DNA from: Oceanicola sp.
Lineage (GTDB): Bacteria > Pseudomonadota > Alphaproteobacteria > Rhodobacterales > Rhodobacteraceae
Assembly (NCBI GenBank): GCA_017792405.1
Contig: CP051231.1
Location: 3,666,062 to 3,730,061, forward strand
Reading direction: 5' to 3'
DNA: 64,000 nucleotides
A model generated the notes under the pieces. That model made no database searches and was not told the origin of the DNA. It saw only the letters and a list, made by a program, of their open reading frames with translations. Positions within the stretch are counted from its first letter, which is position 1. Each line of letters opens with the position of its first letter. A program made the position numbers and the translations under genes. This document shows positions 12,697 through 19,357 of the stretch, piece after piece.

Positions 12697-14592
12697 CTAC
12701 TCGAAGTAAGTGTAACCGTGCATGCTGTTGCGGAAAGCTTGGATCAGTTCGCGGCCTTCCTTGGCATCAATCCCGCCCTCGGAAATCGCTGCATCCACGC
12801 GCTTCCTGAAGCCGTCTGAAATATCGCGTGGTGTGTATTCGACGTAGCTCAGCACCTCGCTGATCGTATCTCCTTGCAGCTCCTCTACGAGATCGAAGCC
12901 GCCGTCCTCGCGCAGTGTGATCGTTGCCACATTCGTATCACCGAAGAGGTTGTGTAGGTCGCCCAGCGTTTCCTGATATGCACCAACAAAAAAAGTCCCG
13001 AAGTGATAACGCTCGCCCTCCTCCACGGTATGCACGGGCAGCGTGCTGGCAGTACCGTCCTCAAGAATGAAGCTGTCGATCTTGCCATCGGAGTCGCAAG
13101 TAATGTCGGCAAGAATCGCGCGACGATCGGGTGTCTCATTCAGCCTTTGCAGCGGCACAAGCGGATGTAACTGATCAATCGCCCATACGTCGGGCAGCGA
13201 CTGGAAGAGCGAGAAGTTGCAGTGGAGGATGTCAGCGGTCGTGTCGAGCTGATCAAGAATCTCGGTGGGGCCTCCGGGTGCCTCGGCAATGTCGTGAATG
13301 CGCGACATGAGCCAAAGATAGATGCGCTCGCCGCGGGCAACCTCCCGAAGGCCAATCGCCCCGCGGCGGAACATCGCTCTCAGTTCATTGCGATAGTAGG
13401 TGGCGTCATTGATGCATTCTTGAAGGCGCTGAGGTTCAAGGTAGGCTGCAATTCCGGCCAGATCGGACACGAGGTGGTGGTCATTAGGCTCAGGCTCAGG
13501 CGCGCTTTCGACATCATATCGAGTGGTTTCTAGCACATCGAAAACCAGCGCTGCGGAAAGCGCGACGACGCCGCGCCCACTTTCGGTCACGAGGTCGGGG
13601 TGATCTGCCCCAGCCTCATCCATCGCGTATTTTACCGTCTCAACAATGTTGGTGCAGTACTCAGCGACAGAGTAGTTCACGGAGCTTTCGGTCGCCCTGG
13701 CCTCGCCAGTGTAGTCAATGCCAAGGCCGCCACCCAGATCGAGACGCGTGAGCGGAACGCCCTCCTTTAGAAGTTCTGTAAAATACCGACAGGCCTCAGA
13801 GGCGGCGCGGCGCACATCGTTCACATCAGGGATCTGACTGCCGAGGTGGCTGTGCTGGAGTGTGAGGCAGTGGAGCAGGTCCGCCTCTTTCAGCTTTTCA
13901 ACAGCCGTGACAAGCTGCTCAGAGTTTAAGCCAAAAGCCGAACGATCCCCTGAAGAGGCAGCCCAAGCACCGCCGATCTGATTGGTCAGCTTGATCCGAA
14001 CACCCAGCAGCGGGTCGATGCCAAGATCCTTGGCGACGCGGATGGCAATATCGACCTCGTTCAGGCTCTCCAGCACGATATAAGTGTTGAAGCCGGCCTT
14101 GCGGGAAAGCGTGGCAAGCGAAACGAACTCCTCATCCTTGGTGCCGTTGCAGATGATCAGCGCATCTTTCGCCAACGGTTGGCCTAATGCGATCACAAGT
14201 TCGGGTTTTGAGCCGGCCTCCAGCCCGTAACCCATCGGAGCACCATATTCGACCAGCCGGCGCACCACCTGTTCCTGTTGGTTCACCTTGATCGGAAAGA
14301 CACCGCGGTAGGCGCCCTTGTAGCCTGCATTTGCGATTGCATCGGCAAAGCTTCCGGTCACCCGCTGAAGACCATATTGAAGAAACTGGGTCACTCGGAT
14401 GAGCACGGGCGTTTGAATGCCCCGTTCGGAGAGGGCGTTCACGACCCCAGGCAGGCTGACAGGTTTAGCCCCGGGGTTCAGCGGGTCCATAAGACCGATT
14501 TCGCCACTCTCCATGACCTCAACAAGGCCACGGCCCCATCGGTTGACGCCGTAAATGGCGTGGGGTGCGGTCGGGGTATCGGACTTATTCAC
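12697..14592 (-). CDS. speA: biosynthetic arginine decarboxylase
   Basis: PLP enzyme converting arginine to agmatine, the first step of one putrescine route. The 631-aa product has the SpeA opening YGVNRWGRGLVEV, the PLP-lysine region GVFPIKVNQQEQVV (about residue 100), the glycine-rich LDLGGGLGIDY, and the C-terminal NLFGDTNVATI. The start is GTG at 14592 with AGGAG about 8 bases upstream; an ATG 51 bases further upstream has no such site. Convergent with the polyamine-type importer, it may tie polyamine synthesis to uptake, although speA is also a core gene in this group. Confidence 0.95.
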   Translation of the reverse strand: MNKSDTPTAPHAIYGVNRWGRGLVEVMESGEIGLMDPLNPGAKPVSLPGVVNALSERGIQTPVLIRVTQFLQYGLQRVTGSFADAIANAGYKGAYRGVFPIKVNQQEQVVRRLVEYGAPMGYGLEAGSKPELVIALGQPLAKDALIICNGTKDEEFVSLATLSRKAGFNTYIVLESLNEVDIAIRVAKDLGIDPLLGVRIKLTNQIGGAWAASSGDRSAFGLNSEQLVTAVEKLKEADLLHCLTLQHSHLGSQIPDVNDVRRAASEACRYFTELLKEGVPLTRLDLGGGLGIDYTGEARATESSVNYSVAEYCTNIVETVKYAMDEAGADHPDLVTESGRGVVALSAALVFDVLETTRYDVESAPEPEPNDHHLVSDLAGIAAYLEPQRLQECINDATYYRNELRAMFRRGAIGLREVARGERIYLWLMSRIHDIAEAPGGPTEILDQLDTTADILHCNFSLFQSLPDVWAIDQLHPLVPLQRLNETPDRRAILADITCDSDGKIDSFILEDGTASTLPVHTVEEGERYHFGTFFVGAYQETLGDLHNLFGDTNVATITLREDGGFDLVEELQGDTISEVLSYVEYTPRDISDGFRKRVDAAISEGGIDAKEGRELIQAFRNSMHGYTYFE

Positions 14593-14665: not shown

Positions 14666-15751
14666 TCAGTCGGCCCGCGACTGGGAAGGGCAGCGGTGTG
14701 GGAGGCTCACGTGAATGATCGTTCCTTGGGTGGCCGCTTCATCACACCAGATTCGACCGCCGTGACGCTCGACTACCTTGCGGCAGGTGGCCAGCCCAAG
14801 GCCTGTACCAGGGATCGCGACAGCGACCGGCAGTCGCTTGAACGGCTCGAAGATGGTCTTGCGGTACTCAAGCGGGATGCCAATGCCCTGGTCCGCCACC
14901 TCGAGGTGAATGGCATCATCGCTTCGGTTGCACCGCACAGTAATTTCTGGGGGCGACTCGCCAGCATACTTAATCGCGTTGCCGATCAAGTTTTGGAGTA
15001 GTTGGATGATCCTAGGCACATGGCAGGTTAGGGTAGCGTTCCCCTCCAGCCTCACTCTTGCTCCCGTACGCTCGACCTCGGCCAGTAGCGACAGGCGCGT
15101 CTCTTCGACAAGCTCCGCGATGGTGATTTGCTCTTCAACAGTCTCGCGGTCCAGATGAACATGGCTCGCGAGACTGGTGACCAGTTCGTTCAGTCTATCC
15201 GCAGATTTTCCAATTAGTTGAACATCACGCTGGACCTCGTTGGCCGTGCCCTCCGCGAGATCTTCGTTCAGTTTTTCGACCAGAAATCGCATCGAGCGGA
15301 TCGGTGCTTTCAGGTCATGCACGAGCACCTCAGAGAAGACCGAAAGATCCGCACGATGCTCTTCAAGCTGCCAGCGCATTCGAGCAAGTTTACAGCCATT
15401 TTCGATGACTCGATCCAGCGCGGCCGCGCTGATGTTTCGCTTTGGCAGGTAATCGACGGCGCCTCGCTGGATCGAAAGCGTCGCGATTTCCTCATCTCCC
15501 TGTCCGGTCATCATGCATATAGCTGCACGCGGCCAGCAATCGGCGAGTAGAGAAATCAAGTCAACGCCACGCGCATCCGGCAGAAGGTAGTCCAAGAAGA
15601 TGAGGTCGGGTTCCAAGTCTGGATTGACCAGAGCCTCTTCTCCGCTAGCGGCTTCGGAAATCTCGGCACGGCTTCCGTGCTGGGTAATGAGGCGTCGAAG
15701 CAGTTTGCGATCGCCTGCGTCATCATCGACGATGAGCACTTTAAATGACAT
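14666..15751 (-). CDS. hybrid receiver-histidine kinase (REC-HisKA-HATPase)
   Basis: Cytosolic signalling protein, 361 aa, with no membrane segment. A receiver domain comes first (residues 1-120; VLIVDDDAGD, phospho-Asp in LIFLDYLLPDARG, conserved Lys in YLPKRN). It is followed by a HisKA dimerisation helix with the phospho-histidine in LVHDLKAPIRS (about residue 156) and a HATPase domain (NLIGNAIKYAG, DQGIGIP, GTGLGLA). Receiver-first order means phosphorylation of the N-terminus probably controls the kinase. It starts 2 bases after the stop of the small response regulator and is last in a four-gene signalling operon. Confidence 0.9.
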   Translation of the reverse strand: MSFKVLIVDDDAGDRKLLRRLITQHGSRAEISEAASGEEALVNPDLEPDLIFLDYLLPDARGVDLISLLADCWPRAAICMMTGQGDEEIATLSIQRGAVDYLPKRNISAAALDRVIENGCKLARMRWQLEEHRADLSVFSEVLVHDLKAPIRSMRFLVEKLNEDLAEGTANEVQRDVQLIGKSADRLNELVTSLASHVHLDRETVEEQITIAELVEETRLSLLAEVERTGARVRLEGNATLTCHVPRIIQLLQNLIGNAIKYAGESPPEITVRCNRSDDAIHLEVADQGIGIPLEYRKTIFEPFKRLPVAVAIPGTGLGLATCRKVVERHGGRIWCDEAATQGTIIHVSLPHRCPSQSRAD

Positions 15752-15753
15752 CG

Positions 15754-16233
15754 TCAGCCACCGCTCTTTGGGCTAGAATGAGACATGTCCGGCAAGACGA
15801 CGATACTCCAATAGTGCTCAACTCCTTCGATGAGCCGTAGGAAATCCATGCCAGCGTTGCCCTTGAGTACGTAGCCAGCGACATTGTTGTCGTATGCGCG
15901 GGCAATGTCCGTTTCGTCCTCCGAGGTCGACAACATAAACACAACCGCTCGGTGGAGGCGGGGGTCCGAGCGTAGCTCGGCCATGAACTCATGACCGTTC
16001 ATTCGGGGCATGTTGATGTCGAGCAAGATCACATAGTGCTCTGGCGGCAGCTCTTCAGCCTCGCTGCGCAAGAAGGAGAGCGCCTCCAGCCCATCACGCA
16101 TTCGGTGTACCGGGTTGGCGATACGGGAACGGCTAAGAGCCCGCTTTACTGATTTCGCGTCGCCGTCATCATCTTCTACAAGGATAATGTTGAGCATGGT
16201 TCGAAGTGCATCGGGATGGAGGGGAGCATTCAT
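15754..16233 (-). CDS. single-domain response regulator
   Basis: A stand-alone receiver domain of 159 aa: NIILVEDDDGDAKSVKRAL, phospho-Asp in YVILLDINMPRMNGHEF, the switch Thr/Ser in FMLSTSEDETD and Lys in GYVLKGNAG. VILLDINMPRMNG and the acidic EDDDGDA match the Rcp1-like class that partners bacteriophytochrome-type kinases. The ATG at 16233 overlaps the kinase stop (ATGA), so the two are translationally coupled; an internal ATG at 16197 lacks a ribosome-binding site. With no output domain it likely shuttles phosphate to another protein. Confidence 0.9.
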   Translation of the reverse strand: MNAPLHPDALRTMLNIILVEDDDGDAKSVKRALSRSRIANPVHRMRDGLEALSFLRSEAEELPPEHYVILLDINMPRMNGHEFMAELRSDPRLHRAVVFMLSTSEDETDIARAYDNNVAGYVLKGNAGMDFLRLIEGVEHYWSIVVLPDMSHSSPKSGG

Positions 16234-18440
16234 GCAGCGAGACCTTCGGGTTGCGAACCAGCCGAGGTTTTGGGCCATTTGAGGCGAAAGGTGGTGCCTC
16301 GGTTTCCATCTGAGTGCAGAGAGATCTCGCCTCCGGCGAGGTCGACATGCTTTCGGACGATCGCTAAGCCCATTCCAGACCCTTCGAGTTCATCACGCGG
16401 GCGTAAAGTCTGGAAGATCTGAAACACGCGCTCATGAAACTCTGGCGGGATACCAGGTCCGTCATCGTTGACGGTAAAGAGCCAGGCATCTGCTGTTTCG
16501 GAGAGGGCGAGGCGCACCGTGCCTTCCTCTCGGTCGTGGTGTTTGAATGCATTTGAAACGAGGTTCAGGATGACAACCTGAAGCGGCATCTGAGGAAGCC
16601 GTCCGGTGTTGAAACCCTCGGTCTCAAATTTCATGCCTTCAGGCACGTTCAGGAGGCCCACGAGGTTCTGGATGAAATCAGCTCCGGCAACTTCCTCCAC
16701 CATTTGACCTTTTCGGCCAATCCGGGAGTGCTCCAGCAGATCGTTCAGCAGACGCTCCATTCGCGTTGCTCGGCTTTTCAGCAGATCCAGGCTTTCACGC
16801 GTGTCGTCAGTCAGATGTGGCTCAAGGTCTTCAGCCAGCCACTGCGAGGCATTCTGGATAACCCGGAGAGGAGCTTTCAAATCATGACTCGCGACATAGG
16901 CGAACTGGTCAAGTTCTTCATTAGAGCGGCGGAGTTGTGCGACAAGATCTGACATACGCGCCTGCGCCTCGTGGCGCTCGGTGATGTCACGGACCATGCC
17001 GATAAACTTGACTTCGCCATCCAGTTCGGCACGGCTAACGGAGATTTCAATTGGAACCCTGGTGCCAGACTTGTGGCGCCCGTAAATCTCTCGGTTGAGG
17101 GCCATGGCCGTGCGGTTTGGGCCGACCCGGCTTTTGGAAACGTGGGATTGGTGCCCGATGGCGTCTTCGCTGAACATGAGCCGGGTTAGGGGCTGACCTG
17201 CCGCTTCAGATGCGGTGTAGCCAAACATCTCTTCGGCCGCCGGGTTTATCTCTTCGACGATGCCATCGCTTGAGATCGTTACCAATCCGTCCGCCATGTT
17301 TCGCAGCGTCCAACCCAATCGCTTATGACTCTGATCGACGGCGCGATGGAGCGCCTCAAATGTGCTTCCGACTTCCGATGCGAGTACGTGCGTGACTCCA
17401 GCCGCAAAACCGACAAGGACGAGGGTGATCAGCAAGTGGCGCAAGAGTACGCCTTTGACGTTACTCTCCAACATTTCTCGAGCACCGAAGGTCAAAACGC
17501 CAAACTGCGCCGGAACTTGCTGGCTCGGGTCCATTGGAACCGTCGATAGGTAGACCAACTCGTCATCAAGGTCAGCAAAGGAGTTCTTGCCGAGCCGGCT
17601 GCCCAACTCTTCTGCTTGTGGTAGGGGCCGAAAGCCGGAGTCGGTGTGGTGGTAGAAGCGCGCTGAACTCTCGCCATGCTGGAAAAGGAGATAGTCTCCT
17701 TCGCTGTTCACTACTGCCACAGACTGGTTCTTAAGCACACCGGGCCGAACTGCTTTGAGAAGTTCTGCATAGTCCGCGTTGAACACAAGTGCCCCGACCG
17801 TTGCGCCGGCTGCGTCACGAACTGGCTGAACATACCGAATTGTGACCGGCCCGCCATCGCGCCTGCCGTGTTCGCGGTTGTATGTGATGCGCGAAAAGTA
17901 TGGCTCCGTTTCGGGGATGGCCTGTATGCGGTCGAGATAGGGTTCGGTGCCTTTGGTTTGCAGATCGGCCTCTGGAACGCGCAGCAATTGGCCCTCGCGT
18001 CGATCAACCCGCACTACTTCGCGCCAGTCGCCCTCAGCGAGTATCAGGCGAATCTGGGTGAAGTGCGGGTGGACCTCTATCTTGTTGGTCATGATGACGG
18101 CTAGCCGATCCTTCCACTGCGAAAGCGAGGAGCCATCGGCAGGATCCATCCCACGCGGGTCGGCCATTGCGCGAACAATTCCAGCAACGGGCGGATGGCG
18201 GGCCAGAGTAGCACCCTGATCCTGTATCTCTCTGAAGCCGGAAGAAATTTGCCCCGCATAGAAACTGGCGCGCTGTTGTAGCTCCGTTTCAGTAGCGCGC
18301 AGAGCGGCAGATCGCGCCGCGAGTACATGGTAGGAGCCGTAGAGCAGGCTCACCACCAGAACAACGCCAACCGCGATCAAGGTAATCCGGTGGGTAAGCG
18401 CGCGGGCGGAGCCTTGGTCGACAGTCGCATTGGGGCTCAT
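16230..18440 (-). CDS. membrane sensor histidine kinase with periplasmic and PAS domains
   Basis: A 736-aa sensor. TM1 lies at about residues 20-40, followed by a periplasmic sensing region of about 290 residues (Cache-like by size and placement). TM2 is near residue 335-355, a PAS domain covers 375-490 (LVTISSDGIVEEINPAAEEMF and GMVRDITER), HisKA has the phospho-His in YVASHDLKAPLR, and the HATPase domain has NLVSNAFKH, DDGPGIP and GSGMGLA. It senses an unknown extracytoplasmic ligand. Coupled by ATGA to the small response regulator downstream and 19 bases below the upstream regulator, it is the evident input of this operon. Confidence 0.9.
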   Translation of the reverse strand: MSPNATVDQGSARALTHRITLIAVGVVLVVSLLYGSYHVLAARSAALRATETELQQRASFYAGQISSGFREIQDQGATLARHPPVAGIVRAMADPRGMDPADGSSLSQWKDRLAVIMTNKIEVHPHFTQIRLILAEGDWREVVRVDRREGQLLRVPEADLQTKGTEPYLDRIQAIPETEPYFSRITYNREHGRRDGGPVTIRYVQPVRDAAGATVGALVFNADYAELLKAVRPGVLKNQSVAVVNSEGDYLLFQHGESSARFYHHTDSGFRPLPQAEELGSRLGKNSFADLDDELVYLSTVPMDPSQQVPAQFGVLTFGAREMLESNVKGVLLRHLLITLVLVGFAAGVTHVLASEVGSTFEALHRAVDQSHKRLGWTLRNMADGLVTISSDGIVEEINPAAEEMFGYTASEAAGQPLTRLMFSEDAIGHQSHVSKSRVGPNRTAMALNREIYGRHKSGTRVPIEISVSRAELDGEVKFIGMVRDITERHEAQARMSDLVAQLRRSNEELDQFAYVASHDLKAPLRVIQNASQWLAEDLEPHLTDDTRESLDLLKSRATRMERLLNDLLEHSRIGRKGQMVEEVAGADFIQNLVGLLNVPEGMKFETEGFNTGRLPQMPLQVVILNLVSNAFKHHDREEGTVRLALSETADAWLFTVNDDGPGIPPEFHERVFQIFQTLRPRDELEGSGMGLAIVRKHVDLAGGEISLHSDGNRGTTFRLKWPKTSAGSQPEGLAA

Positions 18441-18459
18441 GGCGTGTGCTCGGATGAGG

Positions 18460-19203
18460 TCAGCCGTTGTTGGTTACAAGCTTGATGTTGCGGGCGGATT
18501 CGAGCTTGCTCTGCTCGACTATGCTCATCAGGTCATCCAGAAAGATGACGAGATCTTTACATCCTCGTTCGAGCAAGGTGACGTGCTCGTTGGCCGTGCT
18601 CTTGCTGTCATCCTGTCGCATCTTGCGGATGGTCGACAGCGCATTGCTGAGGATTTCGCGCATCTCCGGACCGCAAGACGTGAGGAATTGACGGATCGTC
18701 CGCTTCATCTTGTCCTGAAAGGCTCGAGCATCGGAGATGGACGCGTAGAACATACGTCGCTCGAAGGCAGACACCATGGACTTGCGCAAGTTATCGACCG
18801 ACAGTTCTTCCTTCACTAGATAGTCGGCGCATCCTCGGCGCATTGCCTCAACCGCGATCGCACGGCGGGTGACGGAGGTGAGCATGATCGGAATGATCTG
18901 TGCCTGCTCTTCATGCCCGAGTATCACCTTGAGTGCATCAAGCCCGGTTTCCATGCCAAGATTGTAGTCGATGAAAGCGACATCGAACGGCGCGTCGAGT
19001 TTTTCACGCATTTCTGCAATCGTGTATGCCTCGGTGATTTCCAGATCGAGCCCGGCGCGCTCGCAAATGCGCTGAAGCCGGAGATGGTCGATATCATCAT
19101 CGTCGATGACCAAAGCGCGGAGGCGGGTTGGCATGGCGGTGGCGGTCGCGGTGGGGGGCGCAGGGAAGGGCACAGGCTGAGTAGACATGGCGTTATCATT
19201 CAT
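18460..19203 (-). CDS. response regulator with helical C-terminal extension
   Basis: The 247-aa product has a receiver domain at about residues 27-150 (ALVIDDDDIDHLRLQRI, phospho-Asp in VAFIDYNLGMETG, MLTSV, conserved Lys in DYLVKEEL). After it come about 95 residues of predicted helix (FQDKMKRTIRQFL, EILSNALSTIRKM, LLERGCKDLVIFLDDLMSI) with no DNA-binding motif or catalytic signature I recognise. It could be a degenerate dimerisation/phosphotransfer helix pair. It is the first gene of the signalling operon, divergent from the DUF1045 gene by 154 bases. Met6 is an alternative start. Confidence 0.85.
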   Translation of the reverse strand: MNDNAMSTQPVPFPAPPTATATAMPTRLRALVIDDDDIDHLRLQRICERAGLDLEITEAYTIAEMREKLDAPFDVAFIDYNLGMETGLDALKVILGHEEQAQIIPIMLTSVTRRAIAVEAMRRGCADYLVKEELSVDNLRKSMVSAFERRMFYASISDARAFQDKMKRTIRQFLTSCGPEMREILSNALSTIRKMRQDDSKSTANEHVTLLERGCKDLVIFLDDLMSIVEQSKLESARNIKLVTNNG

Positions 19204-19357
19204 CCTAAAGGCAAGCTGATTGCAGTGACCTTACGGATTTCGCTGTTAACATTTGGTTGCCTTCTGTGGCCAATACGCCTTCCCTTTCACTAAATCTCGC
19301 CACAGTTTGCGCCGGTCTGTCATCGAGATGTTGCTTGGCTGACAGAGAGATGGCCCG

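Follow-up and report, generated by a model that had tools for sequence, protein, structure and literature searches.

Here we report a four-gene signalling cassette from a marine member of the Rhodobacteraceae, comprising a response regulator with a helical tail (rrT), a membrane histidine kinase (HK), a single-domain receiver (rr1) and a soluble receiver-first kinase (rrHK). The architecture of the cassette, its catalytic motifs, its conservation and the association of rrT with a soluble kinase core are established by the comparisons described below. As a whole we read the cassette, with a little less than even confidence, as a portable Lvr-like relay in which HK would pass phosphate to rr1 and probably to rrHK, rrHK would pass it to rrT, and rrT would act through a hairpin; the phosphotransfer steps, their direction and the function of the hairpin are what we infer from the sequences. 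Few receiver-controlled kinases have a mapped signal path, and this portable marine-bacterial cassette ties one of them to a partner of its own, whose tail is of a kind so far undescribed, in a set of four purifiable proteins that allows direct tests of signal routing and tail function. Our search of the open PMC literature found no paper on the cassette or on the rrT tail; with respect to the literature searched, the cassette is new, as is the hairpin-tailed rrT family, and the Rec-HK kind and the Lvr-like trio were already known.

The window analysed is a stretch of 64,000 nucleotides within a 4.31-Mb single-contig genome, whose nearest named relatives belong to Vannielia (Rhodobacteraceae) and whose genus we take as Vannielia. 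Four open reading frames on the minus strand at 14666-19203, proposed as a set in an initial annotation made from the sequence alone, were confirmed at these coordinates and all gave significant Pfam matches. They are transcribed in the order rrT (247 aa), HK (736 aa), rr1 and rrHK (361 aa), with 19 nt between rrT and HK, an ATGA overlap between HK and rr1 and 2 nt between rr1 and rrHK, a spacing like that of an operon. A 154-bp intergenic region (19204..19357), the probable promoter region, separates rrT from a divergent upstream DUF1045 gene (TIGR03223, putative phosphonate metabolism protein); no sigma-70-like site was called within it. On the other side lies speA (12697..14592, minus strand), encoding biosynthetic arginine decarboxylase, with a probable GTG start at 14592 preceded by AGGAG and placed 73 nt past the rrHK stop. 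No terminator-like site was called in this gap, and co-transcription of speA with the cassette by read-through is possible. We rejected speA as a conserved output of the cassette, which it adjoins in six of seven Vannielia genomes and at none of the 34 other loci compared. The seventh Vannielia genome (G001) gave no speA match at 1e-100, a threshold reached in 2 of the 30 genomes searched outside Vannielia, and in the 1.5-kb flanks of speA in those two no other window protein was matched.

HK (16230..18440, minus strand) is a membrane histidine kinase with Pfam matches to HATPase_c (1.9e-25), PAS_9 (1.9e-13) and HisKA (9.4e-13). Its membrane segments, near residues 14-42 and 328-358, enclose an extracytoplasmic part of 285 residues (17460..18314) that is weakly HK_sensor_dom_bact- or dCache-like; of 14 relatives compared, HK_sensor_dom_bact was matched by 8 and dCache_1 by 3 (E<=0.001). 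The PAS domain (residues 379-493; 16962..17306) follows the second membrane segment and is therefore cytoplasmic, so the earlier description of a periplasm-sensing PAS kinase needs correcting, the periplasmic sensor being a separate, weakly dCache-like domain. The HisKA and HATPase_c core (16266..16913) carries SHDLKAPLR, with His519, and its catalytic motifs are intact. HK and rrHK have in common the HDLKAP histidine motif, as had been noted, together with intact N, G1 and G2 boxes.

The receiver-first kinase rrHK (14666..15751, minus strand) matches Response_reg (3.7e-17), HATPase_c (2.4e-27) and HisKA (8.6e-06, just under its cut-off) and carries VHDLKAPIR, with His145. It is soluble, lacking any membrane segment, its acceptor Asp, phospho-His and ATP-binding motifs are all intact, and its residues 4-351 align end to end with residues 5-375 of LvrB (E 2e-15). 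By its predicted architecture rrHK is thus a Rec-HK of the LvrB type, soluble and with the domain order receiver-HisKA-HATPase. The gene between the two kinases, rr1 (15754..16233, minus strand), was correctly described as a single-domain receiver, since Pfam returned Response_reg (1.7e-14) and no other domain. Its listed open reading frame begins at 16278 and would give 174 aa; the true start is probably 16233, in the ATGA overlap with the HK stop, giving 159 aa. It may resemble the Rcp1-type (phytochrome-linked) receivers. At one locus outside Vannielia (L052:2132-5120) a bacteriophytochrome kinase (PAS_2-GAF-PHY-HisKA-HATPase) is convergent to the cassette, and the small gene beside it looks heme oxygenase-like by eye and has no Pfam match at 1e-4.

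The first gene of the cassette, rrT (18460..19203, minus strand), has an alternative start five codons in, which is the start matching several Vannielia relatives. Its receiver (Response_reg, 7.8e-12; 18784..19122) contains the acid pair 34/35, the acceptor D79 and K131; D79 and K131 are kept in 47/47 rows of the family alignment, and Pfam found the receiver domain in all 45 family members scanned. The tail (18490..18762) is predicted to be a hairpin made of a kinked long helix and a second helix. AlphaFold models from three sequences, of low to middling confidence (mean pLDDT 56 for whole rrT and 71 for the tail alone), place the kink at C177-P179, followed by a short turn and the second helix. 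Across 39 tails (those remaining of 47 aligned rows after omission of two duplicates and of six rows whose tail was different or shortened) the conserved residues are F173, C177, E180, M181, R182, L185, S186, L189, R193, R196, L211, E212, C215, L218 and L222.

None of the four proteins has a DNA-binding or enzymatic output recognisable by Pfam besides the kinases themselves, which agrees with the initial annotation, and the Pfam scans of 45 rrT members and 34 tails rule out a known output domain of that database in rrT. Among the matches listed, no Pfam family occurred in more than 3 of the 34 tails and none fell below E 0.009; the NCBIfam matches listed for rrT were only receiver-type ones, far below cut-off. 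A profile of the tail compared with PDB sequences gave nothing convincing (the best match, at E 0.012, was a designed protein), and no single family was prominent among the matches listed from structure searches with the tail model, an absence that carries no weight as evidence.

A search for rrT at E<=1e-12 found it in 52 of 394 genomes of the family (69 match rows) and, at 1e-12, in 7 of 385 genomes of the class, two of the seven lying inside the family. The matches outside the family are longer frames, at least one of them (L089) receiver-GGDEF-EAL by eye and others similar-looking. The rrT family is found mainly in the Rhodobacteraceae. The nearest out-of-family receivers (L087, L089, L091) look by eye to be joined to a GGDEF-EAL-like output, and a match on a Deinococcus plasmid is annotated as a diguanylate cyclase; the rrT receivers may be related to regulators of c-di-GMP.

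For comparison of gene order we used 6 further Vannielia loci and 34 others, chosen for the most part among the best of the 69 match rows, with most of the weaker rows left out, and judged gene presence with profiles for the four proteins; because several genomes contributed two loci, the 34 do not stand for as many independent genera. The full set of four is found as a group in 7/7 Vannielia genomes, the window included, and at 11 of the 34 other loci (L051, L052, L053, L055, L056, L058, L060, L065, L066, L069 and L080). Seven of these eleven (L051, L052, L053, L055, L060, L066 and L080) are collinear on a single strand, and the conservation of gene order that had been suggested as a check thus holds across genera. 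At L058, L065 and L069 HK is divergent, and at L056 HK and a second rr1 face the remaining genes. Elsewhere, other kinases replace HK (L070, L084), or neither HK nor rr1 is near rrT (L054). The flanks of the cassette vary from genus to genus and a Tritonibacter scottomollicae plasmid carries it (L085, NZ_CP136702.1), for which reason the four-gene cassette seems to be portable and to move as a unit. On that plasmid it adjoins a CheA-CheW-CheR-STAS-response regulator cluster. A conjugative plasmid (L086, NZ_CP136707.1) carries a CHASE kinase with rr1 and rrT between IS5 and IS110 transposases, a transposase-flanked set that hints at mobility too.

The initial annotation had named an adjacent transcription factor in orthologous operons as a finding that would tell against its reading. 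Such genes are present near the cassette at three loci, namely AraC/GlxA at L055, TetR at L066 and IclR, ~1.1 kb off, at L051, but each belongs to a different family, and we rejected a conserved transcription factor output on these grounds; in this survey 10 chosen proteins were Pfam-scanned and the others judged by cluster or eye. Four further loci (L115-L118) hold an HK-rr1-rrHK trio without rrT, which makes rrT an added part and means that the trio serves, or once served, some other output; the searches of L116-L122 were run on crude gene calls. At L115 (2461-7470) the open frame of the trio's HK runs to 1670 residues; some 990 of these precede the sensor domain and have no Pfam match at 1e-4, and the length may reflect a mis-called start.

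At most loci rrT is accompanied by a soluble kinase core. It is near rrHK at 14 of the 34 loci and near a short kinase at 16 (L080 has both), hence near one or other core at 29, leaving five (L057, L068, L072, L075, L082) where it is near neither. The short kinase has ~250 residues, is sensorless, keeps its catalytic motifs intact and is often divergent from the adjoining rrT. Conversely, 17 of the 22 rrHK matches in the 394 genomes lie by rrT. Thus rrT goes with one soluble kinase core.

We measured covariation as the correlation of sequence distances in 15 cassettes, 10 of them collinear, with jackknife and permutation. The pair rrT-rrHK gave r 0.60 (partial 0.59; jackknife 0.38-0.69) and the pair HK core-rr1 gave r 0.47 (partial 0.38; jackknife 0.30-0.46), both over 15 cassettes, and the covariation of rrT tail with rrHK core was reached by none of 3000 permutations. 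HK core and rrHK gave r 0.11 (partial -0.07) over the 15 cassettes and r 0.50 in the 10 collinear ones. In the collinear cassettes all six pairs correlate, from r 0.41 (rrT-rr1) to 0.65 (rrT-rrHK), so shared history may explain much of the signal. Read in this light, the covariation would fit transfer from rrHK to rrT and from HK to rr1, as a hint and not a proof.

The near-zero covariation of HK with rrHK, the rrT-less trio at four loci and the 5 of 34 loci with rrT and no core all count against the relay. The first of these is what would be expected of two parallel, largely separate pairs, HK with rr1 on the one hand and, on the other, rrT with an rrHK switched by another kinase or by acetyl phosphate; HK is also inverted relative to the other genes at L056, L058, L065 and L069. 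We nevertheless consider two separate pairs unlikely, given that HK, rr1 and rrHK stay together at the four loci without rrT and that HK and rrHK do correlate in the collinear set.

The relay reading also draws on known systems. Receiver-controlled kinases are common (PMC13269768), and in the LvrA-LvrB pair of Leptospira a receiver-first kinase is switched by phosphate, a direct precedent (PMC5863495, PMC13269768). The LvrA-LvrB-LvrC system likewise links an upstream kinase gene to a soluble receiver-DHp-CA kinase without a DNA-binding domain, LvrB aligns with rrHK over its full length, and a further response regulator lies downstream (PMC13269768, PMC5863495). LvrA, however, is cytoplasmic and hybrid, whereas HK is membrane-bound and has no receiver; rr1 is an extra receiver of the present cassette; and LvrC joins its receiver to an anti-sigma Bergerat domain, whereas rrT joins its own to a helical hairpin. 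The first 25 Pfam families listed for each of two scans, of 45 rrT members and of 34 tails, included no HATPase or Bergerat family, and we therefore rejected the cassette as a true LvrABC system, its downstream regulator not being Rec-Bergerat among the families listed. ExsG of Sinorhizobium, with BphP1 and ExsF, is similar in being a soluble receiver-first kinase with a proposed mediating role that links a sensor kinase to another regulator, but it has an HWE core, forms a hexamer and is inhibited when its receiver is phosphorylated, whereas rrHK is of the HisKA type (PMC3899027).

In the relay as we propose it, HK would sense through its periplasmic dCache-like domain and its cytoplasmic PAS domain, autophosphorylate on its own HDLKAP histidine and phosphorylate rr1, which would be a shuttle or sink receiver. 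By analogy with LvrA-LvrB, HK would also phosphorylate the receiver of rrHK, setting the activity of its soluble core (activation in LvrB, inhibition in ExsG). In turn rrHK would phosphorylate rrT, which would hold the place of LvrC, and the rrT hairpin, in place of the anti-sigma Bergerat domain, would bind a putative partner. The initial annotation had suggested that one kinase is switched by phosphate from the other; the Lvr precedent and the full-length likeness to LvrB speak for a switched rrHK, but HK as the switcher is not favoured by the r of 0.11, and the step from HK to rrHK relies on that precedent and not on the covariation test.

The tail could alternatively act on a kinase, rrT being a phosphorylation-controlled regulator whose degenerate-DHp hairpin docks against the DHp helices of rrHK or of the short kinase, or pairs with them, and thereby inhibits or gates the kinase. 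The presence of rrT beside a soluble kinase core at 29 of 34 loci and the predicted hairpin topology are in keeping with this, and histidine-kinase or DHp structures make up 11 of the 50 structure matches listed for the tail model, such as the ERS1 DHp at Z 8.6 and, superposed over 60 residues with an rmsd of 1.7, a RetS-GacS DHp complex; Z <13 is, however, unspecific for helical hairpins, the models were of low depth, and the matches also include many unrelated hairpins. In gapless profile comparisons the second helix of the tail best matched the second DHp helix in all three kinase sets (scores of 10.0, 12.7 and 11.6 against reversed-tail maxima of 7.9, 10.4 and 8.2), but the first helix does not match likewise, and the register needed to align the His site stands no better than 10th-17th among 111-126 diagonals. 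Alignment of tail with DHp by hhalign was not significant (E 0.01-0.03; 5/100 column shuffles score higher), and against the HK set the reversed tail outscored the forward one. The receiver-like Osp and FixT and the hairpin Sda inhibit other kinases (PMC9430884), and Osp comes from the same bacterial order. Like rr1 and rrT, Osp and FixT are receiver proteins without DNA binding, but the acidic pair is missing from them and they do not become phosphorylated, whereas rr1 and rrT keep the pair and rrT has a tail; we rejected rr1 and rrT as FixT/Osp-type inhibitors on account of these acidic residues. Overall, control of a kinase by rrT seems to us doubtful. In its most specific form, rrT would found a Rhodobacteraceae family of receiver-driven pseudo-DHp adaptors, whose DHp hairpin, its histidine and ATPase lost, docks in the DHp bundle of rrHK or of the short kinase, both soluble and sensorless, to give receiver control in trans, and this we consider quite improbable.

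Two related assignments of the tail were examined. No histidine column is conserved in the 39 tails (the best reaches 10/39, and 7/39 tails have no His at all), which excludes an HPt domain with a conserved phosphorylatable histidine. Against HisKA or DHp identity stand the hhalign result and the missing phospho-acceptor, the five commonest residues at the site aligned to the DHp His being P, A, S, G and Q; HisKA was also absent among the Pfam families listed for 34 tails. The match of the second helix gives partial support, and the tail may still descend from a DHp. HmrB of Caulobacter is likewise a small alpha-helical hairpin, proposed to form a four-helix-bundle dimer in a relay, but it stands alone as an HPt candidate and has putative catalytic histidines, whereas the rrT tail follows a receiver (PMC11481889).

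The initial annotation went too far in limiting the exit of the signal to phosphotransfer or protein binding, since the hairpin has conserved arginines and nucleic-acid binding is a possibility. We nonetheless judge it very improbable that rrT binds RNA or DNA through an arginine-rich first tail helix with gene expression as output: R182 (25/39), R193 (31/39) and R196 (26/39) do lie along one predicted helix, but acidic protein surfaces could equally bind such a stripe, and no HTH, ANTAR or other nucleic-acid domain recurred among the Pfam matches listed for 45 members.

Two further observations concern the surroundings of rrT. A further rrT-like receiver, with a short tail of another kind, occurs at each of L067:8201-8794, L076:14643-15299, L078:10433-11095, L079:7596-8324 and L083:7325-8005; it lies near the short kinase and is often paired with a normal rrT. 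GGDEF proteins of a single cluster are encoded within a few kb of rrT at L051:12848-14251, where the protein is HNOBA-GGDEF, at L053:11226-12819, where the gene adjoins an H-NOX (HNOB) gene, and at L082:9515-10993, immediately 5' of rrT.
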